This document shows, in pieces, positions 861 through 56,823 of a stretch of DNA of 64,000 bases. A program made the translations under genes and the position numbers. Under the pieces are notes generated by a model. The model saw nothing but the letters and a program-made list of their open reading frames with translations. It was not told the origin of the DNA and did no database searches. Source of the stretch: an uncultured Candidatus Cenarchaeum sp. (lineage in GTDB: Archaea; Thermoproteota; Nitrososphaeria; Nitrososphaerales; Nitrosopumilaceae); the NCBI GenBank assembly GCA_958295735.1, contig OY282369.1, positions 1,720,161 through 1,784,160 of the forward strand, read 5' to 3'. Position 1 is the stretch's first letter. The number at the start of each line of letters is the position of its first letter.

Positions 861-1429
861 TGTTCGAGAAGGTGGTCAGGATACCGGCCGACAGGGTGGC
901 CGTCCTCATAGGCAGGGGAGGGGCCACCAAGTACGCCATAGAGGAGGCGTGCGGGGTGTCCGTGGGCGTGGACGGCGGCGAGGTGCGGGTGTCGTCCTCC
1001 TCCGCCGGCGGAGGCGGGGACGAGTTCCTCCCCTTCAAGGCGGCCGAGATCGTCTCCGCCATAGGCCGCGGCTTTTCGCCCGGCAACGCCATGCTGCTGC
1101 TCGAGGGGGACAACGCCCTGAACGTGCTGGACCTGAGGGAGTTCGCCGGCAAGTCGCGCGCCCAGATGGAGCGGATAAAGGGTAGGATAATAGGAGAGGG
1201 CGGGAGGGCGAGGAGGAACATGGAAAGCCTCACGGGGACGCGCATATCCGTGTACGGCAGGACCGTGGCCGTCATCGGCAGCGCGGCGGGCCTCCGCCAG
1301 GCCGTCGGGGCCATATCGTCGCTCTCCAGCGGGAGCATGCACGGCGCCGTGTACGGCAGGCTGGAGTCGGCCCGGCGCCGCGAGAAGGCCGAGAGGATGC
1401 TTCTGTGGGAGGGCCGCGATGCCGCCTAG
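860..1429 (+). CDS. KH-domain RNA-binding protein (archaeal Dim2/Pno1-like)
   Basis: 189 residues with two KH modules, each marked by a GxxG loop: LIGRGGATKYAIEE near the N-terminus and RIIGEGGRARRNMESLTG in the second half. Pno1/Dim2 proteins bind the 3' end region of pre-16S rRNA and are functionally linked to Rio kinases, which matches the position directly behind rio1. ATG at 860 shares bases with the rio1 stop, and the 3' end overlaps the top6B start by 11 bp, so the three genes form a tight operon. Function is assigned from domain and context. Confidence 0.9.
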   Translation: MFEKVVRIPADRVAVLIGRGGATKYAIEEACGVSVGVDGGEVRVSSSSAGGGGDEFLPFKAAEIVSAIGRGFSPGNAMLLLEGDNALNVLDLREFAGKSRAQMERIKGRIIGEGGRARRNMESLTGTRISVYGRTVAVIGSAAGLRQAVGAISSLSSGSMHGAVYGRLESARRREKAERMLLWEGRDAA

Positions 1430-3518
1430 GGAAAAATTCAACCAGATATCGCCCAGCGAGTTCTTCTACCGGAACCGGGACCTGGCCGGGTTCAGCAACC
1501 CCACCCGCTCGCTGTACACGGCGGTCAGGGAGTTCGTCGAGAACGGCCTGGACGCCTGCGACCAGAGCGGGACGCCGCCCGACATACGCCTGTCCATAAG
1601 GGCCGTCGACAGGGACAGGCCCGACCCGCGGCCGTACGTGCTCACCGTGGCCGACAACGGCCCCGGCGTGGAGTCCTCGCAGATCCCCCTGGCCTTCGGG
1701 ACGGTCCTGTACGGATCCAAGTTCGGCCTGAAGCAGGCCAGGGGCATGTTCGGCCTCGGGGCCACCATGGCCATACTGTACGGCCAGATAACCACCAACA
1801 GGCCGGTGGTGGTGAAGAGCTCCACCGACGGCAAGTGGAGGGACGAGTACGAGCTGCTGCTGGACATACAGAAGAACAAGCCGGTAATACTGAAGCACAG
1901 GAGGGTCGAGGCGGCCAAGAGGGGCCTCTCGGTGAGCATCAGCCTGGAGGGCGACTATTCCAAGGCCGGCTCCAGGATCCGCGACTACGTGTACCAGACG
2001 TCCCTGATCACCCCGTACGCGTCCGTCACGTTCGACGACCCGAAGGGCGCGCGGTTCCAGTACAAGCGCATAGTGGCGTCGATGCCCGAGCCGCCCACCG
2101 TGATAAGGCCCCACCCGTACGGGGTCGACGTGGAGACCATACGCAGGATGACCGTCGAGAACGCGCGCGAGATGCCGAGGGCCGACGAGGCCCTGGCCAA
2201 GAAGGTGAACAAGGAGCTTGGCATCGGCGGCAAGAAGGGCGGGAGCCTCGGCGATGCCCTGGCCGGCGCCAAGAAGAAGTGGACCAAGCTCACCGGCCAG
2301 GCTAGGCTCATGGCCGCGCTCATGGCGCTGCTCGGGAGGGACATGGCGGGGCTGTCCCGCGTGCGCGTGGACGACATCGACGCGGCCAACCGGACGGTCA
2401 CGTACTGGGACTACGACGCGTCCGAGTCCAGGACGGTGGGAATGGGGCCCGACGCCGACCACTACAAGGCGCTCGCGGAGATAGCCGCCGGCGACACCCT
2501 GACCGCGTTCCTGACCAAGAGGTTCCAGCGCGTGGGCAAGTCGACCGCAGAAAAATTCGCGAAGTTCGCCGGGTTCAGGCCGGAGCACCGGCTGGGCACG
2601 ATGACCAACCAGGAGCTGGTGAAGCTGAGCGAGGCGCTGCAAAAATTCACGGACTTTTTTCCTCCCGATCCCAGCTGCCTGGCCCCGCTGGGCGCCGAGC
2701 CGCTCGAGAAGGGGATCCGCAAGTTCTTCGAGCCCGACTTTTCGTCCGTGGTGCAGCGCTCGGCCTCCGCGTACTCGGGGTTCCCGTTCGTGGTGGAGAT
2801 GGGCGTGGCGTACGGGGGCGGCATACAGACGCGGGGGGCCAAGGTGTACAGGTTCGCCAACAGGATCCCCCTGCTGTACGACGAGGGGAGCGACGTGGTG
2901 CTGAAGGTCTCCAACGACATAGACTGGAAGAGGTACAGCGTGGGGCCCGACCCGCCGCTGGTGATAGTCTCGCACATATGCTCCACCCGAATACCGTACA
3001 AGACGGTGGGCAAGGAGAACGTCGCGGACAGGCAGGAGATCGAGAAGGAGATCAGGCTGGCCCTGCAGTATCTCCTGAGGAAGCTGGCCTCGTACATGAA
3101 GAGGAAGGGCAGGGCCGAGGCCGCTAAGAAGAGGGCCAACCTGTACTCGAAATACGTCCCGCTCATAGCCCAGTTCTGCACGGAGCTGGCAGGCAAAAAA
3201 TCCGAGCCCGACTACGGGGCGATGCTGGCCGCGGAGCGCGAGGCCGAGGCGGCGACCGGCGGGGCGGCGGCGGCGGCGGCCAAGCCCGGCGGGGCGGCGG
3301 CGGCGGCGGCCAAGCCCGGCGGGGCGGCGGCGGCGGCGGCCAAGCCCGGCGGGGCGGCGGCGGCGGCGGCCAAGCCCGGCGGGGCGGCGGCGGCGGCGGC
3401 CAAGCCCGGCGGGGCGGCGGCGGCGGCGGCCAAGCCCGGCGGGGCGGCGGCGGCGGCGGCCAAGCCCGGCGGGGCGGCGGCGGCGGCGGCCAAGCCCGGC
3501 GCCCGGGGAGGCCGGTAG
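1419..3518 (+). CDS. top6B: DNA topoisomerase VI subunit B with Ala/Lys repeat tail
   Basis: ATPase subunit of the type IIB topoisomerase that relaxes and decatenates DNA with subunit A. The GHKL ATPase motifs are clear: N-box EFVENGLDAC (residues 38-47), DNGPG (79-83) and the glycine-rich lid GMFGLGA (109-115), followed by the H2TH and transducer regions. 699 residues is longer than the usual 530-680. The excess is a C-terminal tail of eight perfect 10-residue repeats GGAAAAAAKP (nt about 3258-3499), ending GARGGR. The tail is low-complexity and basic and may contact DNA (inference). The operon continues into a small ORF and subunit A. Confidence 0.97.
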   Translation: MPPREKFNQISPSEFFYRNRDLAGFSNPTRSLYTAVREFVENGLDACDQSGTPPDIRLSIRAVDRDRPDPRPYVLTVADNGPGVESSQIPLAFGTVLYGSKFGLKQARGMFGLGATMAILYGQITTNRPVVVKSSTDGKWRDEYELLLDIQKNKPVILKHRRVEAAKRGLSVSISLEGDYSKAGSRIRDYVYQTSLITPYASVTFDDPKGARFQYKRIVASMPEPPTVIRPHPYGVDVETIRRMTVENAREMPRADEALAKKVNKELGIGGKKGGSLGDALAGAKKKWTKLTGQARLMAALMALLGRDMAGLSRVRVDDIDAANRTVTYWDYDASESRTVGMGPDADHYKALAEIAAGDTLTAFLTKRFQRVGKSTAEKFAKFAGFRPEHRLGTMTNQELVKLSEALQKFTDFFPPDPSCLAPLGAEPLEKGIRKFFEPDFSSVVQRSASAYSGFPFVVEMGVAYGGGIQTRGAKVYRFANRIPLLYDEGSDVVLKVSNDIDWKRYSVGPDPPLVIVSHICSTRIPYKTVGKENVADRQEIEKEIRLALQYLLRKLASYMKRKGRAEAAKKRANLYSKYVPLIAQFCTELAGKKSEPDYGAMLAAEREAEAATGGAAAAAAKPGGAAAAAAKPGGAAAAAAKPGGAAAAAAKPGGAAAAAAKPGGAAAAAAKPGGAAAAAAKPGGAAAAAAKPGARGGR
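3258..3499 (+). repeat. 30-bp tandem repeat in top6B, eight copies, in frame
   Basis: Eight near-identical 30-bp units encode GGAAAAAAKP. The period is divisible by three, so copy-number change keeps the reading frame. The units are so similar that recent expansion is likely. Confidence 0.97.
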
Positions 3519-5067: not shown

Positions 5068-5252
5068 CGGAAGGAAGAGGAGCGCCGCCCGCGCATCCGG
5101 CGACGCTGTTCTGACCGTGACGGAAGGAAGAGGAGCGCCGCCCGCGCATCCGGCGACGCTGTTCTGACCGTGACGGAAGGAAGAGGAGCGCCGCCCGCGC
5201 ATCCGGCGACGCTGTTCTGACCGTGACGGAAGGAAGAGGAGCGCCGCCCGCC
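5068..5252. repeat. 53-bp tandem repeat, about 3.4 copies
   Basis: Units begin at 5068, 5121, 5174 and 5227 (last one partial) and are essentially identical. The array lies 20 bp downstream of top6A in a non-coding spacer. The 53-bp period is not a multiple of three, and each unit contains stop codons, so it is not a coding repeat. Confidence 0.95.
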
Positions 5253-11430: not shown

Positions 11431-13551
11431 CTACCGCGCGGCGGGGGCTGCCCGCCGCGCCGCCGCCCTGGCGGCCGCCTCCGCCTCGGAGCGGGACGCG
11501 GCGTTCTCGTACTGGCGTATGCGCTCGGCTATCAGCCGGTACAGCGACCGGAACTGGTCCTTGGTCTTGTCGGTGAGGAACTCGGTCTGGCCCAGCGTTA
11601 TCTTTTCGCACACGTACCTGGTGATCTCCTCGTTGTCGAACTTGCCCCAGCCGTCCTCCCTGCGGTCCTCCCACACGGCGTGCAGGCCGTCCAGCACGCC
11701 CTCGCGGCCGAGGGCCTCGACGTCCTCCCCGGTCAGCTTGGTGTACCCCTCCCGCCTCAGCTTGATCTCGTACGTCTGGTTGACGGCGTGCAGGTAGTCG
11801 TCGGCCACCATGTAGTCCTCGATGGAGCGGACCGGCCTGCCGTCCCTCTCGAAGAATATGGTCTGCACCTTGGAAAACCCGTTGTCCACCAGCTGCGCGG
11901 ATATCTGCTTGGACTCCTCGCTGTTGTCCAGCAGGACGAACGTCCGGTACCCGTGGTTCCTGTAGAATATCGCCAGCGGCATCACCGAGTTCTTGCTGAA
12001 CGCGGGCACCACGTTGAGCGGGTTCATGGAGATGTTGGGGTCCTGCAGGAACTTGTCGAACGCGTTGAGGTACATGCTGTCGGACATGGTCTCCACTATT
12101 ATTATGGGCCTCGAGTTCGTGCCTATCTCCCTGTCCACTATCGACTGGACCAGCCCCCTGGACAGCCCGTACAGGATGGGCGTGAGCGTGTTGTCGTCGG
12201 CGTTCCAGTAGTCGTAGAATATGCGGCTGAGGTGCCGCCTCTTGTCCAGCTCTACGACCAGCAGGTTGCCCGGCGTGTAGTCGAATATCATGAACGGCGA
12301 GTGCGTCGCGTACAGGACCTGGTTGGAGCCGGCCAGGTCCTTCAGCAGGTCCGATATGCCCATCTGCTGCGTGGGGTGCAGGTTGCGCGCCGGCTCGTCC
12401 AGCAGGAGTATGGCCTCCTTCAGCTCGGCCCTCTGCGTCTCCGCCGCGAAGTTCACTATGAACGAGAACGTCCACTTGAAGCCCTCGGCCCTCCTGTTGA
12501 GCAGCCCCGTGTTGGTTATGGTGCCGTCCCTGTGCACGTCCGATATCACCACGCTCATGATGTTGCCCGGCTGGTACCTGAGGTCCACGTGTATTGGGTC
12601 GCCCTTCCAGGCCGGGTTCAGGCGGTCCGTGAGGCGGTTGCTGGCCGTGTTGAGGAACTTTATGAGCCGCGACGGGCTGTCGTGCAGCCTCTCCATCTCG
12701 TCCACGTCCAGCTCGGCCAGGTAGAACAGGTTCCGCACCGTCTCGGCCCTGTCGAACTCCTCGATGTATTCCAGGCCGTCCCTCTTCTCCCCCTTGGACT
12801 CCTTTATGTACTCGTTCAGGTTGATGTTGCCGTAGATCTTTTTGTAGTCGGAAAAGTAGACGAACCGCGGGTGCAGGTTCTCCTCTATGAAGTGCTCCAG
12901 CGCGTCCAGATCGGTCGTCCCCGCGAGGAGGCTGGAGAACTGGTTCTCCTTGCTCCCGTACATCTTTTCCCACTCGTGGATCACCTTGGGCTCGTCGCCG
13001 GCCTTTACGTGGAACTGGTTGCTAAAGTCCGCCATGGCCGCATCGAACTCGTCACGCGTGGCGGGCGGGGCTCCCGGCCTGAAGAACGAGGCGTCGAGCT
13101 GGATCCTGATGTGGTTGGGTATGGAGTCGAGGAACGCGAGCATGCGCTCCCGGAAGTTCTCCCACGAGTTGAGCGCCTTGTTCTCCTCGCTGCTTATGTC
13201 CAGGTCCCCAAAGTCGTACTGCGCGTCGTCGCCCCTGTTGGTGCGGCATATGTGGAGCCTCGTCACGTCGGGCAGGCCGGGGAAGCGGTCCCTGATCATC
13301 GACGTCTCGTTCTGGTTGAGCACGAACTCGCCCTCCACCAGCTTGACCTCCTCCTTGAGCGCCTCGGCCAGCTCGTCGCACAGGTCGAGCTCGGACACGC
13401 GCACCCCCCTGTTGAGCAGCGTGAGCGCCTGCAGTATGGTGGTCTTGCCGCTCTCGTTGCGCCCCACGAACGCCGCGAGGTCCCCCACCATGATCTCCCC
13501 CGAGTCGTGGATGCACCTGTATGCCTGAACGCGGAACTTGCGGAGGCGCAT
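11431..13551 (-). CDS. OLD-family ATPase with TOPRIM-like nuclease region
   Basis: 706 residues. An ABC/SMC-type ATPase is split around the N-terminal half: Walker A GRNESGKTT (30-38), Walker B region ILLLDEPARNLHP and a following VLYATHSPFMI switch. The C-terminal part has a TOPRIM-like core (IIIVETMSDSMYLNAF, then FVLLDNSEES). OLD (overcoming lysogenization defect) proteins are DNA nucleases; several, such as GajA of Gabija, act in phage defence. No UvrD-like partner lies next to it. ATG 13551 is about 27 bp below the TATA-like GTTAAATC (13576-13583). The C-terminus is an Ala/Arg-rich tail. Confidence 0.82.
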   Translation of the reverse strand: MRLRKFRVQAYRCIHDSGEIMVGDLAAFVGRNESGKTTILQALTLLNRGVRVSELDLCDELAEALKEEVKLVEGEFVLNQNETSMIRDRFPGLPDVTRLHICRTNRGDDAQYDFGDLDISSEENKALNSWENFRERMLAFLDSIPNHIRIQLDASFFRPGAPPATRDEFDAAMADFSNQFHVKAGDEPKVIHEWEKMYGSKENQFSSLLAGTTDLDALEHFIEENLHPRFVYFSDYKKIYGNINLNEYIKESKGEKRDGLEYIEEFDRAETVRNLFYLAELDVDEMERLHDSPSRLIKFLNTASNRLTDRLNPAWKGDPIHVDLRYQPGNIMSVVISDVHRDGTITNTGLLNRRAEGFKWTFSFIVNFAAETQRAELKEAILLLDEPARNLHPTQQMGISDLLKDLAGSNQVLYATHSPFMIFDYTPGNLLVVELDKRRHLSRIFYDYWNADDNTLTPILYGLSRGLVQSIVDREIGTNSRPIIIVETMSDSMYLNAFDKFLQDPNISMNPLNVVPAFSKNSVMPLAIFYRNHGYRTFVLLDNSEESKQISAQLVDNGFSKVQTIFFERDGRPVRSIEDYMVADDYLHAVNQTYEIKLRREGYTKLTGEDVEALGREGVLDGLHAVWEDRREDGWGKFDNEEITRYVCEKITLGQTEFLTDKTKDQFRSLYRLIAERIRQYENAASRSEAEAAARAAARRAAPAAR

Positions 13552-13599
13552 GTGCGCCTGCTGACGATCACTTTGATTTAACTCATGCGAACACCGAAG

Positions 13600-13965
13600 C
13601 GCGGATCCGCGCGCCGGCGGGGCGGCGGGGGCGGAGCGCGGCCCGCCTGGGAACCGCCGGCGCGCCGGGAGCCCGGCCGGCGCGGCGCGGAGCCGCGGGC
13701 GCCGGGGGCCTCCGCCCGGCCGCGCGGCGCCGGGGGCCCTCCGCCGAGGGGGCGCCGGCGGGGGTCCGGGGAGCCCCCGCGCTCGTGCGGCGGGGGACCG
13801 CGGGGACCCGCGCCCCGCCGCCCGCGGGCGCCGCCTGGCGGGCGCGCCCCCGGCAGGGGGCGGGGGCGCGCCGCCCGGCCCTGCCCCGGCATCGCCGCCG
13901 CGCGCCGCGAGGGCGGCGGGGCGATGCGCGCGCGCGGCGGGCGCGGGGGATGCGCCGCTTTTCAG
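13600..13965. other. GC-rich spacer, no gene seen
   Basis: About 370 bp of extremely GC-rich DNA (very few A or T). Long open frames on both strands here reflect base composition only; they have no TATA-like element, no recognisable protein and strongly biased amino-acid content. Confidence 0.7.
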
Positions 13966-13969
13966 CGCG

Positions 13970-14058
13970 CAGGCCCATGCCCAAACCGGAACCGCGCCAG
14001 ACGGCGGCGCGCCGCCCCCCGGCCCCGCGCCTGGATCGCGGCGGGTCCGTGTCCGCCT
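13970..14058 (+). repeat. Dispersed repeat R1, copy 1 (diverged)
   Basis: Matches the R1 core CCAAACCGGAACCGCGCC and the later GCCGCCCCCC..CCCGCGCC..GGATC segment; the outer ends are degraded. It is followed in the same orientation by R2 copies, as at 31.6 kb and 44.3 kb. Confidence 0.75.
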
Positions 14059-14062
14059 TTCT

Positions 14063-14268
14063 GCGCACGAGGCCGCGCGCCCGCCAGTCACGGGCGCTAA
14101 AGCGCTTCTGCAGGTTTGGGCTCGTGCCCACGAAGCGGGAATTGCTGATCCCGCACCTTTCCGTGTGTGGGGTCGCGTACCCGCCAGCCACAGGCGTGAA
14201 AACGGCCCCGCTGATCTAGATTCGCGCCTGCGAAGCGGAAGCTGCTGACCGCGTACCTTTCCGTTCCT
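14063..14268 (+). repeat. Dispersed repeat R2, two diverged tandem copies (about 90 bp apart)
   Basis: Copy one begins GCGCACGAGGCCGCGCGCCC and copy two matches from GTACCCGCCAGCCACAGGCG. Shared blocks are CCCGCCAGYCACRGGCG, a GTGCCC/CGCCTG CGAAGCGG block, and TGCTGA...CACCTTTCCGT. They lie just upstream of the promoter of the secreted-protein gene at 14303. Confidence 0.75.
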
Positions 14269-14302
14269 TAAATAGATATATGGGAAAAACGCGCTTGGGA
14301 CG

Positions 14303-14770
14303 GTGGCCTCTAGGGTAGTTTACCTCGCATTCATCCTTCCGGTGCTGCTCTCGTTCGCCTTGGGGGGCTCCGTGATGGCCCAAGTTCTCCAGGAGCCGGG
14401 AAGGGAACTCGTAATGTGGCCGCCCGACAGGCCGGCGTCCGGCGCAACCGGCGACGGCACCCTGCAGATCCTTGGACTGAACCCGGCCTATTCGGCCACG
14501 GAGCCGGTGGCTATACAGGTGGCGGTTCGGGACGATGCGCTGGACTGCGGCGACCTGTACGTGACTATCTACGACGCGGCCACCGACGAGGTGGTGGCGC
14601 AGGACGGCTTTTTTGAGCAGTGCTTTGCGGGATCCAATTCCACCATTCCCCTGAACGGCGGGTTCTTGAAGACGATAGACGAGCCCGGAAACTACGAGAT
14701 CAGGGTTGTGGTCAGCGACGCGGCGGGGACGCGGACGGCCACGGCAGGGGATGTGTTTTCCGTAGGATGA
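14303..14770 (+). CDS. Small secreted protein of unknown function
   Basis: 155 residues with a clear signal peptide (VVYLAFILPVLLSFALGG, cleavage after VMAQ). The mature part is a single beta-rich domain with two Cys (LDCGDLYV and FFEQCFAG) that may form a disulphide. GTG 14303 follows the TATA-like TTAAATAGATATAT (14268-14281). Similar short beta-sandwich secreted proteins are frequent in thaumarchaea; the partner is unknown. Confidence 0.72.
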   Translation: MASRVVYLAFILPVLLSFALGGSVMAQVLQEPGRELVMWPPDRPASGATGDGTLQILGLNPAYSATEPVAIQVAVRDDALDCGDLYVTIYDAATDEVVAQDGFFEQCFAGSNSTIPLNGGFLKTIDEPGNYEIRVVVSDAAGTRTATAGDVFSVG

Positions 14771-14830
14771 AATCGACGTCGCACATCGGCACCGGCCCAA
14801 AAACGGGCGCGCCGCGCCTCGAGTGATCGC

Positions 14831-17800
14831 ATGGCTGACGAATTGCGCAACGATTCCGGGAGCGCGGGTTCCGGGCAGGGCGCATCCGGCGCCGGCGCGC
14901 CCGTCGGGCCGACGTCCCCCGCGCCTCCCGATCGCGGCGGCGTGGCCGGAGCGAAAAAAGGGGCGGAAGCCGCCGCCGACGCGGACGTCCGCGGGACGGG
15001 GGCGAGCGCCGCGGCGGCCGCAGATGCGGGGACCGAAACCGATGCCGGCCCGGGCGGCGGGGCCGAACCTGCCGCGCAACTACAGGAGGCCGGCAAAGCC
15101 GCAGGCGGCAAGAACGACGAGGCCAGGCAGCAAGATGCCGGAGGGGAGCCAAAGGACGCAAAGGCGGGAAGCGGCAGGAAGGCCGCGAAGGCGAAGCCCA
15201 GGCAAAAGGCGGCGGGTAGCAGCAAGGCCGCGGAGGCCGAGCCGTCGGGGCCTGCGCCGAGCGCGGAAAAAGATACAAAGGCGAAGGCGAAGCCCAAGCA
15301 AAAGGCGGCCGGCGGAGGAAAGACCGCGGGGGTTGTAGCGGCATCGGACGGCGGGAAAGCCGCCAAGGCTGGGGCGAAGCCTAGACAAAAGGCGGCGGGT
15401 AGCGGCAAGGCGGCGGGTAGCGGCAAGGCGGCGGAGGCCGAGCCGTCGGGGCCTGCGCCGAGCGCGGAAAAGGACAAAAAGGCGAAGGCGAAACCGGGGC
15501 AAAAAGCGCCGGGTGGAGGAAAGGCGAAGACGAAGGCGAAACCGGGGCAAAAAGCGCCGGGCGGAGGGAAGGACGGAAAGCCCGAGACCGAATCAGATGC
15601 CGGGAAAAAGAACGAGAAAGCCGGGGCCGCGCCGGACGGCGGCGAGGCGAAGGCGAAACCGGGGCAAAAAGCGCCGGGCGGCGGGAAGGACGGAAAGCCC
15701 GAGACCGCATCAGATGCCGGGAAGGTTAAGGCTACACCGGGTGTAGAAAATGTCTTGAAGGCGAAAGCGAAGCCCAGGCCGAAGGCCGGGAGCGCCGGAA
15801 AGAGAGACGGGAAGATGGAGGTTGCAGAGGCTGGAGGAAAGGATGTGGTTACAGGGGGCGCGAAGGATGCTGGCGGCAAGAAGGCGGCCCCGGCCACCGG
15901 CGGCAAGAAGGCGGCCCCGGCCACCGGCGGCAAGAAGGCGGCCCCGGCCACCGGCGGCAAGAAGGCGGCCCCGGCCACCGGCGGCAAGAAGGCGGCCCCG
16001 GCCACCGGCGGCAAGAAGGCGGCCCCGGCCACCGGCGGCAAGAAGGCGGCCCCTGCCCCGTCCCCGGCCCCGGCCCCCGGCGGCAAGAAGGCGGCCCCGG
16101 CCCCGGCCCCGGCCCCCGGCGGCAAGAAGGCGGCCCCTGCCCCGTCCCCGGCCCCGGCCCCCGGCGGCAAGAAGGCGGCCCCTGCCCCGGCCACCGGCGG
16201 CAAGAAGGCGGCCCCGGCCCCGGCCACCGGCGGCAAGAAGGCGGCCCCGGCCACCGGCGGCAAGAAGGCGGCCCCGGCCACCGGCGGCAAGAAGGCGGCC
16301 CCGGCCACCGGCGGCAAGAAGGCGGCCCCGGCCCCGGCCCCGGCCACCGGCGGCAAGAAGGCGGCCCCTGCCCCGTCCCCGGCCCCGGCCACCGGCGGCA
16401 AGAAGGCGGCCCCTGCCCCGTCCCCGGCCCCGGCCCCCGGCGGCAAGAAGGCGGCCCCGGCCCCGGCCCCGGCCCCCGGCGGCAAGAAGGCGGCCCCTGC
16501 CCCGTCCCCGGCCCCGGCCCCCGGCGGCAAGAAGGCGGCCCCTGCCCCGTCCCCGGCCCCGGCCACCGGCGGCAAGAAGGCGGCCCCTGCCCCGTCCCCG
16601 GCCCCGGCCCCCGGCGGCAAGAAGGCGGCCCCGGCCCCCGGCGGCAAGAAGGCGGCCCCTGCCCCGGCCCCGGCCCCCGGCGGCAAGAAGGCGGCCCCTG
16701 CCCCGGCCCCGGCCCCCGGCGGCAAGAAGGCGGCCCCTGCCCCGTCCCCGGCCCCCGGCGGCAAGAAGGCGGCCCCTGCCCCGGCCCCGGCCCCCGGCGG
16801 CAAGAAGGCGGCCCCTGCCCCGTCCCCGGCCCCCGGCGGCAAGAAGGCGGCCCCTGCCCCGGCCCCGGCCCCCGGCGGCAAGAAGGCGGCCCCTGCCCCG
16901 TCCCCGGCCCCCGGCGGCAAGAAGGCGGCCCCTGCCCCGGCCCCGGCCCCCGGCGGCAAGAAGGCGGCCCCTGCCCCGGCCCCGGCCCCCGGCGGCAAGA
17001 AGGCGGCCCCGGCCCCGTCCCCGGCCACCGGAGGCAAGAAGGCGGCCCCGGCCACCGGAGGCAAGAAGGCGGCCCCGGCCACCGGAGGCAAGAAGGCGGC
17101 CCCGGCCCCCGGCGGCAAGAAGGCGGCCCCGGCCACCGGAGGCAAGAAGGCGGCCCCGGCCCCCGGCGGCAAGAAGGCGGCCCCGGCCCCCGGCGGCAAG
17201 AAGGCGGCCCCGGCCCCCGGCGGCAAGAAGGCGGCCCCGGCCCCCGGCGGCAAGAAGGCGGCCCCGGCCCCCGGCGGCAAGAAGGCGGCCCCGGCCCCCG
17301 GCGGCAAGAAGGCGGCCCCGGCCCCCGGCGGCAAGAAGGCGGCCCCGGCCCCCGGCGGCAAGAAGTCGAAAAAGGCCGGCGCCTCCGCAAAAGGCGAAAA
17401 GACGATGGAGGAGGAGATGGAGGTGGCCCTGTCCGCCGAGGAGATAGCGAACTTCCAGATCGACAGGGTCGACATGAACGAGCTCACCAACAAGGTGTGC
17501 GAGATACTGGTGGACTACGAGTCGGCGGGACTGGTGCAGGCAGAGCTGTGGAAGAGGCTCAGGCCGTGGAAGAGGATAAAGCTTGACGACAGGGACGGGG
17601 CCAGGCTGGCCCTGAAGCTGGAGAGGTCGGGGATCATCACCAGGGAGAAGGTGCTGGAGAACGGCAGGTGGACGTACAGGCTGGTGCTGAAAAAGACGCC
17701 CGTAAGCACCCTGTCCATAGAAAAGGCGCCCTGCCTCACCTGCGACGTGGAGCAAAAATGCACCCCCGACGGGGAGGTGAGTCCCCGCACCTGCCTGCTC

Positions 17801-17848
17801 ATAGCGAACTGGGTCATGCCTCCGCTCAGGCCGAAAAGGCGGCCATGA
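14831..17848 (+). CDS. TFE-beta (RPC34/hRPC39-like) transcription factor with giant repeat domain
   Basis: 1005 residues. The last 145 are an archaeal TFE-beta: a winged helix (about 875-950, with ELTNKVCEILVDYESAGLVQ and LKLERSGIITREKV) and a Cys cluster CLTCDVEQKC...SPRTC (about 967-990). This matches the Fe-S motif of human POLR3F/RPC39. TFE-beta with TFE-alpha aids promoter opening by RNA polymerase. The first 860 residues are low-complexity: an acidic/Ala-rich start, K/A/P/G-rich segments, then about 44 GGKKAAP-type repeats (nt 15870-17375). Every unit is a whole number of codons and the frame is unbroken, so the tail appears to be selected. An internal ATG at 17405 could yield a short form. 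Confidence 0.85.
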   Translation: MADELRNDSGSAGSGQGASGAGAPVGPTSPAPPDRGGVAGAKKGAEAAADADVRGTGASAAAAADAGTETDAGPGGGAEPAAQLQEAGKAAGGKNDEARQQDAGGEPKDAKAGSGRKAAKAKPRQKAAGSSKAAEAEPSGPAPSAEKDTKAKAKPKQKAAGGGKTAGVVAASDGGKAAKAGAKPRQKAAGSGKAAGSGKAAEAEPSGPAPSAEKDKKAKAKPGQKAPGGGKAKTKAKPGQKAPGGGKDGKPETESDAGKKNEKAGAAPDGGEAKAKPGQKAPGGGKDGKPETASDAGKVKATPGVENVLKAKAKPRPKAGSAGKRDGKMEVAEAGGKDVVTGGAKDAGGKKAAPATGGKKAAPATGGKKAAPATGGKKAAPATGGKKAAPATGGKKAAPATGGKKAAPAPSPAPAPGGKKAAPAPAPAPGGKKAAPAPSPAPAPGGKKAAPAPATGGKKAAPAPATGGKKAAPATGGKKAAPATGGKKAAPATGGKKAAPAPAPATGGKKAAPAPSPAPATGGKKAAPAPSPAPAPGGKKAAPAPAPAPGGKKAAPAPSPAPAPGGKKAAPAPSPAPATGGKKAAPAPSPAPAPGGKKAAPAPGGKKAAPAPAPAPGGKKAAPAPAPAPGGKKAAPAPSPAPGGKKAAPAPAPAPGGKKAAPAPSPAPGGKKAAPAPAPAPGGKKAAPAPSPAPGGKKAAPAPAPAPGGKKAAPAPAPAPGGKKAAPAPSPATGGKKAAPATGGKKAAPATGGKKAAPAPGGKKAAPATGGKKAAPAPGGKKAAPAPGGKKAAPAPGGKKAAPAPGGKKAAPAPGGKKAAPAPGGKKAAPAPGGKKAAPAPGGKKSKKAGASAKGEKTMEEEMEVALSAEEIANFQIDRVDMNELTNKVCEILVDYESAGLVQAELWKRLRPWKRIKLDDRDGARLALKLERSGIITREKVLENGRWTYRLVLKKTPVSTLSIEKAPCLTCDVEQKCTPDGEVSPRTCLLIANWVMPPLRPKRRP
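15870..17375 (+). repeat. Coding tandem repeat, about 44 GGKKAAP units
   Basis: Each unit starts with GGCGGCAAGAAGGCGGCCCC and varies only in a following (AP)n, APSPAP or AT spacer, giving unit lengths of 27-45 bp in multiples of three. The order suggests block duplications (runs of AT units at both ends, long APSPAPAP units in the middle). Confidence 0.97.
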
Positions 17849-18441
17849 AGCCGGCCGAGGCCAGGAGGGACCACTACAGGAGGCTCGCCCGCGAGCAGGG
17901 CCTCAGGAGCAGGGCCGCCTTCAAGCTGAAGGAGCTGAACAAGTCGTACAGGATCATCGGGGCCGGGTTCAGCGTGCTCGATCTGGGCTGCGCCCCCGGC
18001 GGGTGGACGCAGATTGCCGTGAGGCTTGCCGGCAACCGCGGCAAGGTGATGGGCGTGGACACCGCGTACGTCGACGAGATAGAGGGGGCCGAGATCGTCC
18101 GCGGGGACGTGGAGGGCGACGGGAGCGTGCTGGAGGCGGCGCTGGAGTACTTTGGCGGCAGGGCCGACGCGCTGATATGCGACCTTTCCCCGCGGGTGAC
18201 CGGAAACTGGTCGGTGGACCACGCCAGGCAGATCTCCCTGGACTACGCGGCGGCCGAGGTCATGGAGGGGGTGCTGGCGCGCAAGGGCAACGCGGTGTTC
18301 AAGGTGTTCGACGGGGAGTACGCGACGGAGTTCTGCGGCCATATGGGGTCGAAGTTTTCCAAGGTGAAGGCCACGAAGCCGCAGGCCAGCCGCAAGCAGA
18401 GCAGCGAGCAGTACCTCGTGTGCCTGGGGTTCCGCGGGTAG
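17845..18441 (+). CDS. rlmE: RlmE/FtsJ-like rRNA 2'-O-methyltransferase
   Basis: 198 residues, typical length. SAM-binding motif VLDLGCAPGGWTQIAV, and the K-D-K-E catalytic tetrad positions can be seen (RAAFKLKEL, ICDLSP, FKVFDG, SSEQYLV). FtsJ-type enzymes methylate U2552-equivalent ribose in large-subunit rRNA. ATG 17845 overlaps the TFE-beta stop (ATGA), so the two are co-transcribed. Confidence 0.92.
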   Translation: MKPAEARRDHYRRLAREQGLRSRAAFKLKELNKSYRIIGAGFSVLDLGCAPGGWTQIAVRLAGNRGKVMGVDTAYVDEIEGAEIVRGDVEGDGSVLEAALEYFGGRADALICDLSPRVTGNWSVDHARQISLDYAAAEVMEGVLARKGNAVFKVFDGEYATEFCGHMGSKFSKVKATKPQASRKQSSEQYLVCLGFRG

Positions 18442-30569: not shown

Positions 30570-31343
30570 GTGGCCGGGGCTGGCACGAACGGCGGCGGGG
30601 CGGGCCCGCCCGCCCCGGAGCGCCCGCCTGGCGCGGCGCGCGGATCGCCCGCGCCCGACGAGCGCCGCAGGAGCCTGCGCCGCCTGTCGCGGGACAGGCT
30701 GGGCATGGTGATCGCGGGTAGGGTCTCGAAGGACAAGATCGTTGACACGATGGCAAAGTACGGCCGCGAGCTCCCCGCGGGCGACGTGCTCGGGAAGGAG
30801 GACGCGGAATCGCTGCGCGGCGCGGACGTCCAGGAGGCAGACAGGCCGCTGCTCGACGCGCATCTCGACGCGGTCGAGGAGGCTGCCCGGCACCAGGCCG
30901 CGCTCGAGGACGAGATGGCATCGACGTGCGGCGACGATCCCGGCGTCAGGCTGCTCATGACGATACCCGGAATCGGCCGCGCGACGGCGATCGGGCTGCT
31001 CTCCGAGATAGCCGACGTGCGCCGGTTCGAGACGGCCGAAAAGTTCACCGCGTACGCGGGAATCGTGCCGTCGCGAGGCGGCGGCGTCATAACGAAGACC
31101 GGTCCTGCATGGCTGCGCTGCGCGCTCTTCGATGCGGCCACAGCGGCGGCGCGCCACGACGGGAGGATGATGGAGAGGTACGAGCGGATAAGCGAGCGCC
31201 GCGGCAAGCGGAAGGCCGAGGTCGCCGTTACCAGGACGCTGGCCACGGTGATCTGGCACATGCTGACCGACGGCGCGGAATACAGGGCGCGGGACGGGGG
31301 CCCCGGGCGAGATGCGGGGGGCCGGGGCGAGCCGCCCGGCTGA
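30570..31343 (+). pseudogene. IS110-family transposase, N-terminally truncated
   Basis: 257 residues. Only the coiled-coil linker and the C-terminal IS116/IS110/IS902 domain are present: PGVRLLMTIPGIGRATAIGL, FTAYAGIVPS with the likely catalytic Ser region, and GVITKTGPAWLR. The DEDD RuvC-like domain (about 150 residues) that must precede it is missing; instead there is an A/P/G-rich start 15 bp after the PCD gene. It is therefore a relic or a domesticated fragment. The stop lies inside the first unit of a 22-bp tandem array. Confidence 0.75.
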
Positions 31344-31469
31344 CGGGGGCGAGCCGCCCGGCTGACGGGGGCGAGCCGCCCGGCTGACGGGGGCGAGCCG
31401 CCCGGCTGACGGGGGCGAGCCGCCCGGCTGACGGGGGCGAGCCGCCCGGCTGACGGGGGCGAGCCGCCC
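31331..31469. repeat. 22-bp tandem repeat, six copies plus a partial
   Basis: Unit GCCGCCCGGCTGACGGGGGC plus GA, starting at 31331, 31353, 31375, 31397, 31419, 31441 and 31463 (partial). Copies are identical, indicating recent expansion. It abuts and includes the 3' end of the IS110 relic. Confidence 0.97.
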
Positions 31470-48159: not shown

Positions 48160-49020
48160 GACGGCGGGGCCCTCCGGCCCGCGCCGCGGTGCGCGCCCCC
48201 TGCCGGACGCGGCCCGCCCGGCCTGCCGCGCAACCAGGGGGCGGGGGCGCCAGGCGCGGCGGACGCGGCCCGCCTAAAGCGCAATGCGTCCCGGCCGCAG
48301 AAGCCTGCCCCCGCCCCGCCTTCCCCCCGCCGGCGGTCCGGCTGGCTGGTGCGCGGCGAGATCACCGTGCCGGGGGGCCTCCCGCCCGCCTCCCCCCCGC
48401 CGGCGGTCCGGCTGGGCTGCGGGCCAGCCGCCGCGGCCAGCGCCGCGCGGGCGCCCTCTTCCACGGCCGCGCGCTTCGCGCGTGCGGTGGGGCGCGTCGA
48501 TCCTGCCCGCCGGGATCCCGGCGCCCCGGCCGCGGCGCTGCCGCGTGTCCGCCTCACGCCTTGGGCGGCCGGCGCCGCGGATCCCCGCGCGGGCGCGCCG
48601 GATGCGGCGCGGCGGGACGGGACGATGCGGCCTGCGGGCGGCGCCCCGGCGGCGCGGGGCGGGACCGCGCGCGGCCCCGGGAACTGGAGCAGGCCGCGGG
48701 TCCGCCTCCTCCGGGGTTCGGCCCGCCGGAGGGCCGGGCAGCGGCGCGGCGCGCAGGGATGCTGGCGCCTGGCAGTCCGGCGGCCGCGTGGCGGCGGGCA
48801 AAAGGGCCGCGGCGCGCTTCGCCCGCACGGCTGCCGGAAAAGGGGCCGCGGGATGCGGAAGGCTGGGGCGCGCTGCCGGGACAGCCTTCCCGGCGCGCGG
48901 GGATCCGGGGATGCGCCGGGCGCTTTTCGGGGACAGCTCCGCAGCCTGCCGGCGGCGCGGGCCCCGTCCTGCGGCTTTGCTCCCGCGCCGCGCCCGGCGC
49001 GGCGGAGCGCTGCCAAGTCG
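48160..49020. other. Gene-poor region with decayed sequence
   Basis: About 860 bp without a supportable gene. Long open frames on both strands have no TATA-like element and read as Arg/Pro/Ala/Gly filler. It contains a 35-bp remnant of the gene at 7285-7578 (at 48346-48380) flanked by two copies of CCGCCGGCGGTCCGGCTGG 70 bp apart, which suggests a degenerated duplication. Confidence 0.7.
48346..48380 (+). pseudogene. Remnant of a paralogue of the 7285-7578 gene
   Basis: 35 bp identical to 7516-7550 except one A to G change; it would encode LVRGEITVPGGL. Flanking sequence does not match, so only a fragment is left. Confidence 0.6.
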
Positions 49021-49022
49021 GG

Positions 49023-49411
49023 GCCGGAACGGCGCCCGATCGCCGTCCGCATTTTCGCGCAATCGTCACGGCGGAAGCGGCGGGGCCGGAACGGCGCCCG
49101 ATCGCCGTCCGCATTTTCGCGCAATCGTCACGGCGGAAGCGGCGGGGCCGGAACGGCGCCCGATCGCCGTCCGCATTTTCGCGCAATCGTCACGGCGGAA
49201 GCGGCGGGGCCGGAACGGCGCCCGATCGCCGTCCGCATTTTCGCGCAATCGTCACGGCGGAAGCGGCGGGGCCGGAACGGCGCCCGATCGCCGTCCGCAT
49301 TTTCGCGCAATCGTCACGGCGGAAGCGGCGGGGCCGGAACGGCGCCCGATCGCCGTCCGCATTTTCGCGCAATCGTCACGGCGGAAGCGGCGGGGCCGGA
49401 ACGGCGCGCGG
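49023..49411. repeat. 62-bp tandem repeat, six perfect copies plus a partial
   Basis: Units start at 49023, 49085, 49147, 49209, 49271, 49333 and 49395 (partial). Each holds an A/T-richer core, CCGCATTTTCGCGCAATCGT, in GC-rich flanks. Copies are identical. The period is not a multiple of three and there are no spacers, so it is neither coding nor CRISPR. It lies about 320 bp upstream of the dnaG promoter. Confidence 0.97.
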
Positions 49412-54579: not shown

Positions 54580-55453
54580 CCTTTCCGCGGGCCCTCCCCG
54601 CCGCGTAGCGCATTATGGCGGCCGGCACGTCCACCCCGCAGACCCTCACGGTGTTCTTGAACTCCGTGGTGTTGTTCACCTCGTGCACCAGATGCCCCCT
54701 GTCCCTGCTCTCCATCATGTCCACCCCGACCACCTCGCCGCCGACGGCCCGGGCCGCCTTGATGCAGATCTCCTCCATCTCGGCCGTCACGGGGCACGCC
54801 TCGGCCCGCCCCCCCGTGGCCATGTTGGTCTTCCACGAGGATCCCGAGTACCTGTATATGGCCGCCGCCGCCCTGCCCCCCACCATTATCACGCGTATGT
54901 CGCGCTCGGGCCGGTCGACGAACTCCTCCATGTAGTGCACGTGGTACAGCGGGTACATGCCCTCCCGCCCCTCCAGCACGCCCGCTGCCGCGTCCCTGCC
55001 CGTCAGCCTGGAGACCATGCGCCCCCAGCTCCCGACGGTCGGCTTTATGACCGCGGGGTACCCGGTGCGGTCCAGCGCCTCCAGCGCCGCATCCCTCGAG
55101 AACGCCACGCGCGCCTTGGGCACCGGCACGCCGCTCTTCTTCAGCAGCATGTGCGCGTACAGCTTGTTGCCCGCGAGCACCCCGGTCATCATGGGGTTGA
55201 TCACCGTCGCGCCCAGCCCCTCCAGGGCGGCCGTCGAGTGGACGCTGCGGTAGTAGCTGACGCATCTCTGCAGCACCACACCGTGCGCCGAGGCCGCATC
55301 GGCGGCGTCTCGCCCGTCCAGCTCCTGGGCCAGCCCCCTGCAGTCCACCATCCTGACGTCGATGCCCTCCCTGCGCCCGGCCTCCATGAGGGCCTTTTCC
55401 TCCCACCTCATGGCGTCGTACAGGACGGTGACCCGCGGCGCGGGGGACGTCAC
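54569..55453 (-). CDS. lysX: LysW ligase, LysX-type (ATP-grasp)
   Basis: 294 residues. Joins alpha-aminoadipate (or glutamate) to the LysW C-terminus. ATP-grasp features: VLYDAMRWEEKALMEA, VIKPTVGSWGRMVSRL, and VGVDMMESRD then HEVNNTTEFKN. GTG 55453 overlaps the homocitrate synthase stop by 4 bp. Linkage to homocitrate synthase suggests this is the lysine-branch enzyme; the second ligase lies near argG. Confidence 0.88.
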   Translation of the reverse strand: MTSPAPRVTVLYDAMRWEEKALMEAGRREGIDVRMVDCRGLAQELDGRDAADAASAHGVVLQRCVSYYRSVHSTAALEGLGATVINPMMTGVLAGNKLYAHMLLKKSGVPVPKARVAFSRDAALEALDRTGYPAVIKPTVGSWGRMVSRLTGRDAAAGVLEGREGMYPLYHVHYMEEFVDRPERDIRVIMVGGRAAAAIYRYSGSSWKTNMATGGRAEACPVTAEMEEICIKAARAVGGEVVGVDMMESRDRGHLVHEVNNTTEFKNTVRVCGVDVPAAIMRYAAGRARGKDGA

Positions 55454-56823
55454 CGCCCCCCGCCCCCGCCCCGGCGCCCCCCCTTCCCGGCCTTCGGCGG
55501 CGCGGCGGCGGCGGCGCGCCCCCCGCCCCGGCGCCCCCCCTTCCCGGCCTTCGGCGGCGCGGCGGCGGCGGCGCGCCCCCCCTTCCCGGCCTTCGGCGGC
55601 GCGGCGGCGGCGGCGCGCCCCCCGCCCCCGCCCCGGCGCGGCGCCTTCCCCGTCATCCTCCTTTCCAGCCTGTCGTCGAGGGGCACGTCGATGAGGTCCC
55701 CGGCCCCGAGCTCCTTGAGGCCGGCCGCCACGGCCGCGGCCGCCTTGCCGTCGCCGCCGCCGGGCAGCCCGAGCAGGGACATGAGGTAGGCGGCCCCCGC
55801 CCTGCCCGCCAGCCCGCCGAACACGATCCTCCTCCTGTTGCCCACGGCGCGCGGCGGCACGGGCTCGTACGCGGCCGGGTTCTTCAGGACCGCGGCCAGG
55901 TGGGTCCCCGCCTTGTGCTTGTACGCCGACGGGCCCACCACCGGCTTGGAGTCCGGTATCTTCACGGAGGTGTACCCCTCTATCATCCTGGAGAGATCCT
56001 GCAGCATGTCCAGCCTGAAGTCGTTCGTGGTCCCGTACAGGTACGTCAGCGCCACGGCGACCTCGGCCAGGGGCGGTATCCCGGTGCGCTCCCCCATCCC
56101 GTCTATGGTGGTGTGTATCTGGTCGGCCCCGGCATCGGCGGCCGCCAGCGCGTTGGCGACGGCCAGCCCCATGTCGTTGTGGACGTGCGCGTCGAGGGGG
56201 ATTCCCACCTCGGCGCGCACCATCCTCACCATGTCGTACATGCCGGACGGGCGCAGCGCCCCCACGGTGTCGGGCAGGCTTATCCTGTCGGCCCCCGCCT
56301 CCTCCACCGCCCTGCAGACCCTCAGCAGGAACCGCGGGTCGGCCCTGCTCCCGTCCTCGACGGTGAACCTTATCTTGAGGCCGTGCCGCTTGGCGTATTC
56401 CACGGTGTCGACGGCCCGCTCGACGGCCTCGTCCCCGGTTATCCCGAGCTTGTCCCTCATGTGCACCTCGGAGATGCCCAGGTACGCGGCGACCCACTCG
56501 GCGCCGCACCTGCGGGAGACGTCCACGTCGGCCCTGAGCGCCCTGCCGTGCGCCACGACGTCGGCCCGCAGCCCCTGCCCCAGTATGGATCTGGTGGCCT
56601 CCTCGTGGTCGGGGGACACCACGGGGGAGATCTCTATCTGGTCCACCCCGAAATAGTCCAGCATCCAGGCCGCCTGTATCCTCTGCTTGTTCGTGAACGA
56701 GACGCCGGGATGCTGCTCGCCCTCGCGCAGCGTGCTGTCCAGTATGCTCACCTTGCGGGGCTCGCCCCTGCCCCGCCCGTTGTACCGGTGCGCGTGCCTG
56801 TTGGGATCCCTCCTTCCGGCCAT
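55450..56823 (-). CDS. hcs: Homocitrate synthase with repeat-bearing C-terminal tail
   Basis: 457 residues. First step of the alpha-aminoadipate pathway to lysine. Motifs: ILDSTLREGEQHPGVSF, ISPVVSP, DRISLPDTVGALRP, LDAHVHNDMGLAVANALAA and YKHKAGTHLAAVL. The last 60 residues are three copies of RAAAAAPPKAGKGGR with G-rich spacers, absent from normal enzymes. ATG 56823 is about 30 bp below CTTATAACAGG (56847-56857). Confidence 0.92.
   Translation of the reverse strand: MAGRRDPNRHAHRYNGRGRGEPRKVSILDSTLREGEQHPGVSFTNKQRIQAAWMLDYFGVDQIEISPVVSPDHEEATRSILGQGLRADVVAHGRALRADVDVSRRCGAEWVAAYLGISEVHMRDKLGITGDEAVERAVDTVEYAKRHGLKIRFTVEDGSRADPRFLLRVCRAVEEAGADRISLPDTVGALRPSGMYDMVRMVRAEVGIPLDAHVHNDMGLAVANALAAADAGADQIHTTIDGMGERTGIPPLAEVAVALTYLYGTTNDFRLDMLQDLSRMIEGYTSVKIPDSKPVVGPSAYKHKAGTHLAAVLKNPAAYEPVPPRAVGNRRRIVFGGLAGRAGAAYLMSLLGLPGGGDGKAAAAVAAGLKELGAGDLIDVPLDDRLERRMTGKAPRRGGGGGRAAAAAPPKAGKGGRAAAAAPPKAGKGGRRGGGRAAAAAPPKAGKGGRRGGGGGR
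55455..55640 (-). repeat. In-frame tandem repeat in hcs C-terminus
   Basis: Blocks containing CCTTCCCGGCCTTCGGCGGC recur three times (around 55486, 55546 and 55588), encoding an Ala/Pro/Lys/Gly tail. Confidence 0.93.

Follow-up and report, generated by a model that had tools for sequence, protein, structure and literature searches.

Introduction

Few parts of a genome are usually as conserved as its basal transcription factors. One of them, TFE-β, is the partner of TFE-α and acts as a clamp-binding initiation factor. The closest described system is TFE-α/β of Sulfolobus solfataricus, whose TFE-β is short and tail-less and has one winged helix with a four-cysteine domain behind it (PMC4495717). 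This winged helix is believed to extend over the DNA channel, and charge-reversal mutants in its wing show a reduced PIC stimulation; a tail is not mentioned in the accessible part of that paper, from 2015 (PMC4495717). A thaumarchaeal RPC34/TFE-β with an extended N-terminal low-complexity region was reported by Blombach in 2009, in one sentence; residues 244–362 of the Cenarchaeum symbiosum protein were used in that work, whose accessible part makes no mention of the charge or function of the tail (PMC2770514).

Here we describe a TFE-β gene located at 14831..17848 (+ strand) of the window, that is, the whole stretch of 64,000 nucleotides of DNA that was analysed. The gene (1005 codons, ATG start, TGA stop) shares with the S. 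solfataricus system the order of winged helix and four-cysteine domain as well as the presence of TFE-α in the same genome; it differs by an 858-aa basic arm and by 6 residues inserted in the winged helix. With the thaumarchaeal RPC34 of 2009 it has in common an orthologous gene, the N-terminal low-complexity extension and a context of RNA-modification genes. However, the C. symbiosum protein, which is very probably the 362-aa TFE-β of our same-genus relative G001, has a tail of 220 aa, as compared to 858, built of other units. The initial annotation knew of no such architecture for TFE-β, a view that is not supported, given the 2009 report (PMC2770514) and the orthologue tails of 39–295 aa described below. 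The thaumarchaeal tail as such has been known since 2009, while the 858-aa length, the conserved charge and the distribution over a single family appear to be undescribed; a limited literature search returned nothing on the charge, distribution or function of the tail.

Results

The conserved TFE-β/RPC34 domain (17405..17848, + strand) comprises 147 aa, residues 859–1005 of the protein, so that the winged helix and cysteine cluster initially placed in the C-terminal 145 or so residues are borne out. AlphaFold2 locates the winged helix at 17474..17689 (+ strand), with helices at 24–36, 45–52 and 62–74 and strands at 78–85 and 88–95 of the domain, and with a pLDDT of about 82–89 over most of its length; the model of the cysteine domain is poor (pLDDT below 50). 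The cysteine motif CxxC-x5-C-x10-C (17732..17794, + strand; C110, C113, C119 and C130 of the domain) fits the TFE-β/RPC34 signature CxxC-x(3-5)-C-x(4-10)-C (PMC2770514). Its four cysteines, invariant across 11 aligned sequences, are the expected ligand set of a predicted 4Fe-4S cluster. In the winged helix, an 18-bp imperfect duplication (17549..17584, + strand) adds 6 residues (LWKRLRPWKRIKL); it is unique to this species and absent from all other orthologues with a readable motif.

The profile searches gave a divided outcome. Taken as a single sequence, the domain matches PF05158 with E=0.0014 and 18.6 bits, under the curated cut-off of 28.4 bits, and RPC6 among the PDB profiles with E=0.009; a similarly weak match, with E of about 0.001, was seen by the authors of the 2009 report (PMC2770514). 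When the aligned family is used as query against the PDB, the RPC6 chain is found with E=8.5e-07. No Foldseek match reached E≤0.001, and the top matches, amid many winged helices, include RPC6 7d58_P and the RPC39 winged helix 2dk5. TFE-α is encoded in the same genome (PF02002, 56.5 bits against a cut-off of 22.9). Immediately downstream, the start of the RlmE/FtsJ rRNA methyltransferase gene (17845..18441, + strand; PF01728, E=4.6e-48) overlaps the TFE-β stop (ATGA), and beyond rlmE lie trm1, on the opposite strand, and RNase HII. This agrees with the RNA-modification genes found co-localised with the RPC34 orthologue in 2009 (PMC2770514). Since rlmE directly follows TFE-β in 55 of the 56 loci, orthology is secure. 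The RPC34/RPC6 profile matches, the cysteine signature, the rlmE synteny and the presence of TFE-α all support the identity first proposed, and we count the homology to TFE-β as shown.

The whole protein has a computed mass of about 94 kDa, a pI of 10.3 and a net charge of +116, of which +115 falls on the 858-aa N-terminal tail. The tail begins with about 347 aa (14831..15871, + strand) of low complexity, rich in A, G, K and E and containing short AKAKPGQKAPGGGK-type repeats. This part is followed by a tandem array of 1.5 kb (15872..17353, + strand; 494 aa, residues 348–841) consisting of 44 GGKKAAP units of 9, 11, 13 or 15 residues, and the tail ends with GGKKSKKAGASAKGEKT (17354..17404, + strand). 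The 860-residue KAP-repeat domain of the initial annotation is therefore correct as to the low complexity, which extends throughout, but the array proper covers only 494 aa and the first 347 or so are different. Allowing up to two mismatches, we searched the single-contig genome of 3,166,131 bp for the GGCGGCAAGAAGGCGGCCCC unit and obtained 44 matches, of which 40 are exact and 4 have one mismatch; they lie without exception on the + strand and within the TFE-β gene, and none is outside it; the reversed pattern, used as control, gave 0 matches genome-wide. A dispersed genomic element is thus rejected, 44/44 copies being inside this gene. A 45th GGKK runs on as GGKKSKK.

The distances from unit to unit are 27, 33, 39 or 45 bp, each divisible by 3, so that every boundary is in frame; this confirms the unbroken frame originally noted for about 44 repeats. 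The units are near-identical, with 13 DNA variants arranged in ordered blocks, and vary at Pro/Thr, Ala/Ser, CCG/CCT and GGC/GGA, the Lys-Lys being invariant. The array contains 92 Lys and 0 Asp/Glu. Lysine accounts for 17% of the tail, compared to a median of 2.5% for the ORFs of the same genome, and in a sample of 424 kb with 291 ORFs, window included, no disordered-type stretch is richer in lysine than that of the tail. Judging by its composition, the tail is predicted to be disordered. Neither the array nor the first ~346 aa gave a match in a Pfam search, and homology of the tail to H1, HupB or AlgP is rejected on these grounds; of the linker-histone or HupB-like K/A/P tail initially suggested, the likeness in composition is what stands. 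A DNA hairpin is also rejected, as either strand folds worse than all 200 shuffles. On the template strand, 18 G-quadruplex-type motifs are found between 16050 and 16990, within the longer array units; a DNA-level role is unlikely because they stem from Pro/Ala codons.

An array of 1.5 kb made of near-identical units is a classical site of collapse or expansion, and the repeat count could be an assembly artefact. This appears highly improbable: the genome is one contig of 3.17 Mb, which suggests long reads, and the array displays ordered variant blocks rather than one copy repeated. Furthermore, an artefact would leave the 347 non-array aa in place and the tails of the relatives unexplained.

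As to the start of translation, a Shine-Dalgarno-like GTGATC (14823..14828, + strand) is located 2 nt before the long start and represents a 6-nt match to GGAGGTGATC, in the register expected for the 3′ end of an archaeal 16S rRNA. Among the long starts of the 34 tailed orthologues, GGAGGTGATC is matched over 5 or more nt in 19 cases, compared to 9.9% of random positions. Alternatively, only a short form of about 143–147 aa could be made from ATG 17405 or 17417, the upstream frame being incidental. An AGGAGG lies 2 nt upstream of the internal ATG at 17417..17419 (+ strand), a possible, poorly spaced start that recurs in the same-genus relative, and both genomes are GC-rich, a condition under which chance open frames are common. 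Yet this AGGAGG codes for Glu-Glu and is too near the ATG, while no ribosome-site motif was found at ATG 17405 and the GTGATC of the long start occupies a position typical of the family. In addition, all array spacings are multiples of 3, whereas the other two forward frames hold 7 and 12 stops. Most orthologues have no domain-proximal ATG, save one inside the winged helix, and therefore could not produce a complete short form from an ATG. We regard an exclusive short form as very unlikely, and production from ATG 17405 alone, which the initial annotation saw as a potential refutation, is disfavoured. The sequence favours, short of proof, the long form, and full-length TFE-β is presumably expressed.

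The TFE-β gene was found in 58 of 60 relatives. Counting only same-family orthologues with a complete 5′ end, an N-terminal lysine-rich tail is present in 29/29 relatives of the family (which we infer to be Nitrosopumilaceae), with lengths of 39–295 aa and a median of 97. The comparison of orthologues called for at the outset thus finds the tail in every complete family member, and the rule that archaeal TFE-β is a protein of about 150 aa fails across this family. Twelve orthologues within the order but outside the family have ≤15 extra residues before the domain; one of these twelve (G045) has a brief run of K, A and P at its start. Across the phylum, the surveyed open frames measure 119–228 aa outside the family as compared to 194–1025 aa within it. 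On the domain tree, a 100/100 branch sets the tail-less sequences apart as a single group, a topology compatible with a single origin of the tail at the base of the family. An apparent tail-less family member (L006) was rejected, its gene being cut by the contig end. Judging by their size and GC, the tail-less f8 genomes may belong to mesophilic soil forms, which bears on mesophily as a possible sole cause of the tail.

In the genome set, all tails of at least 35 aa have a positive net charge, of +0.11 to +0.36 per residue, and this holds at 30–71% GC; the density in our species (+0.13) is near the low end of the family range. Hydrophobic residues are sparse in the family tails. The repeat units vary by species (KKEAAPKEKKPA, KKTAKKAEKPAK, AKPDATKP, KRSSPGKEVAKPMVKKKSALV and others), which argues that arrays repeatedly arise and are replaced. 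Some tails of relatives contain KKEEKK, and many open with a short helix-like IKAELxxLKEKxK ahead of the repeats, which our species lacks. A link between the tail and high GC is rejected, given that relatives at 30–45% GC are tailed too; the same observation leaves the proposed tethering of the polymerase to a GC-rich genome unsupported. On this comparative evidence the tail is an extreme form of a family-wide feature and no one-off, and what is conserved could be just "basic and flexible".

Tandem arrays make up 10.9% of the sampled bases of this genome, as compared to 1.2% and 2.8% in two relatives, and their density is 22.6 per 100 kb as compared to 5.0–7.0. Several further arrays deserve description. 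The Topo VI-B gene (1419–3518, + strand) carries a C-terminal tail of eight AAAAAKPGG-type units, with a 30-bp perfect repeat at 3256–3501; its relatives are without a repeat tail, the family open frames being mostly 612–640 compared to 774 here, and in G001 two separate open frames together cover the gene. An HMGL-like enzyme of the homocitrate/isopropylmalate synthase type (55450–56823, – strand) has an APPKAGKGGR repeat tail, APPKAGKGGRAAAAA, and an open frame of 466, compared to mostly 387–434 in relatives. A 257-aa basic protein (L066:685–1458; G000:C1:580001–600000) consists chiefly of ten perfect 54-bp units (KDAKAKIRGARKADAKAA) and gave no match in a Pfam search. Perfect tandem arrays at 49019–49407, 5068–5251 and 31324–31469 have units of 62, 53 and 22 bp, which are not multiples of three, and are probably intergenic. 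Finally, two long arrays (L075:5561–8705 and 12397–15568, same genome), built of about ten units with a length of 309–321 bp, probably encode large repeat-domain proteins.

These data bear on the possibility of neutral bloat, in which in-frame slippage and expansion of repetitive lysine-rich codon tracts would have generated the tail, or the greater part of the length seen here, with the protein tolerating it and selection removing only stops and frameshifts. The high share of tandem arrays in this genome, the repeat tails also present on Topo VI-B and the HMGL-like enzyme, and the 13 DNA variants among 44 near-identical units, whose similarity makes the expansion look recent, all point in this direction. 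On the other hand, neutrality leaves unexplained the basic tail of every complete family orthologue over the whole GC range, the tail-less state of the 12 non-family orthologues and the high lysine content of the tail in a genome with so low a median. Neutral bloat is possible, though we think it rather unlikely. The family trait accounts for the existence of the basic tail, and a species-wide repeat expansion probably for its extreme length; as the length coincides with this genome-wide expansion, the 858 aa may for the greater part be neutral.

Discussion

On balance, we hold it probable that the gene encodes a genuine TFE-β with a family-wide disordered polycationic arm which binds nucleic acids non-specifically and was lengthened by in-frame repeats. 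The arm would date back to the base of a single family of archaea (Nitrosopumilaceae, as far as can be deduced) and would have been kept net-positive and hydrophobe-poor in the complete orthologues while its repeat units turned over; in our species, in-frame tandem duplication would have stretched it to its present size. Being attached just before the winged helix, from whose N-terminus it would exit, the arm would lie next to promoter DNA and perhaps also to nascent RNA. There it could touch the phosphate backbone of DNA or RNA non-specifically, a contact that would hold TFE-α/β near the template and stabilise the initiation complex. Binding and the effect on initiation are suggested by analogy: the charge-reversal mutants of the S. 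solfataricus winged helix stimulate the PIC less (PMC4495717), AlgP KPAA peptides bind DNA (PMC9239181), and lysine-rich IDRs bring snoRNPs close to nascent rRNA (PMC11528048). From the winged-helix position and these lysine-tail analogies, a flexible, non-specific polyanion tether is the most likely role. The DNA-binding tail of the initial annotation is plausible in this respect, the tail being basic and found in every complete family orthologue; the part concerning a GC-rich tether is not retained.

The chief ligand of the arm might instead be RNA or polyphosphate, or the arm might act in polymerase condensates, rather than on promoter DNA. AlgP, with its KPAA repeats, sits at polyphosphate granules (PMC9239181), lysine-rich IDRs self-interact and collect near nascent rRNA (PMC11528048), and the TFE-β gene is linked with rlmE and trm1. 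However, archaeal snoRNPs are reported to be without lysine-rich tails (PMC11528048), and from sequence alone the polyanions are indistinguishable. We judge such a main role quite unlikely. In a widespread lineage of archaea, a basal factor has acquired, apparently on a single occasion, a long basic arm with its charge kept and its sequence scrambled. The arm makes up most of the mass of TFE-β in our species. The tailed protein allows one to test directly if polymerases of nucleus-free cells benefit from disordered polycationic tails, and the natural tail lengths, from 39 to 858 residues, offer a ready-made dose series in vitro.

Among the systems with comparable tails, AlgP/PhaF of Pseudomonas, itself associated with nucleic acids, likewise carries a low-complexity tail of K/A/P repeats, and the repeat number of AlgP varies among isolates (PMC9239181). 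That tail, however, is C-terminal, has KPAA units, measures 154 aa, and is bacterial and unrelated (PMC9239181). Ours is N-terminal and belongs to a basal transcription factor; its array consists of GGKKAAPAP/AT units and longer forms and contains no KPAA-type tandem repeats. The KKE/D IDRs of eukaryotic snoRNPs and of the Pol I subunit Rpa34 are also lysine-rich disordered extensions, and that of Rpa34, as here, sits on a polymerase-associated subunit (PMC11528048). These IDRs are strong polyampholytes (K-K-E/D), whereas our array is without acidic residues and contains no such repeats, the KKEEKK tails of the relatives being nearer; homology is not expected. More tentatively, and with considerable doubt, a fast-evolving arm of conserved charge may be a low-specificity handle on the transcription machinery, for nucleic-acid binding or condensates, which here may organise the polymerase on the chromosome. 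If this were true, the arm would resemble in its logic the disordered tails found on polymerase-associated factors of eukaryotes.
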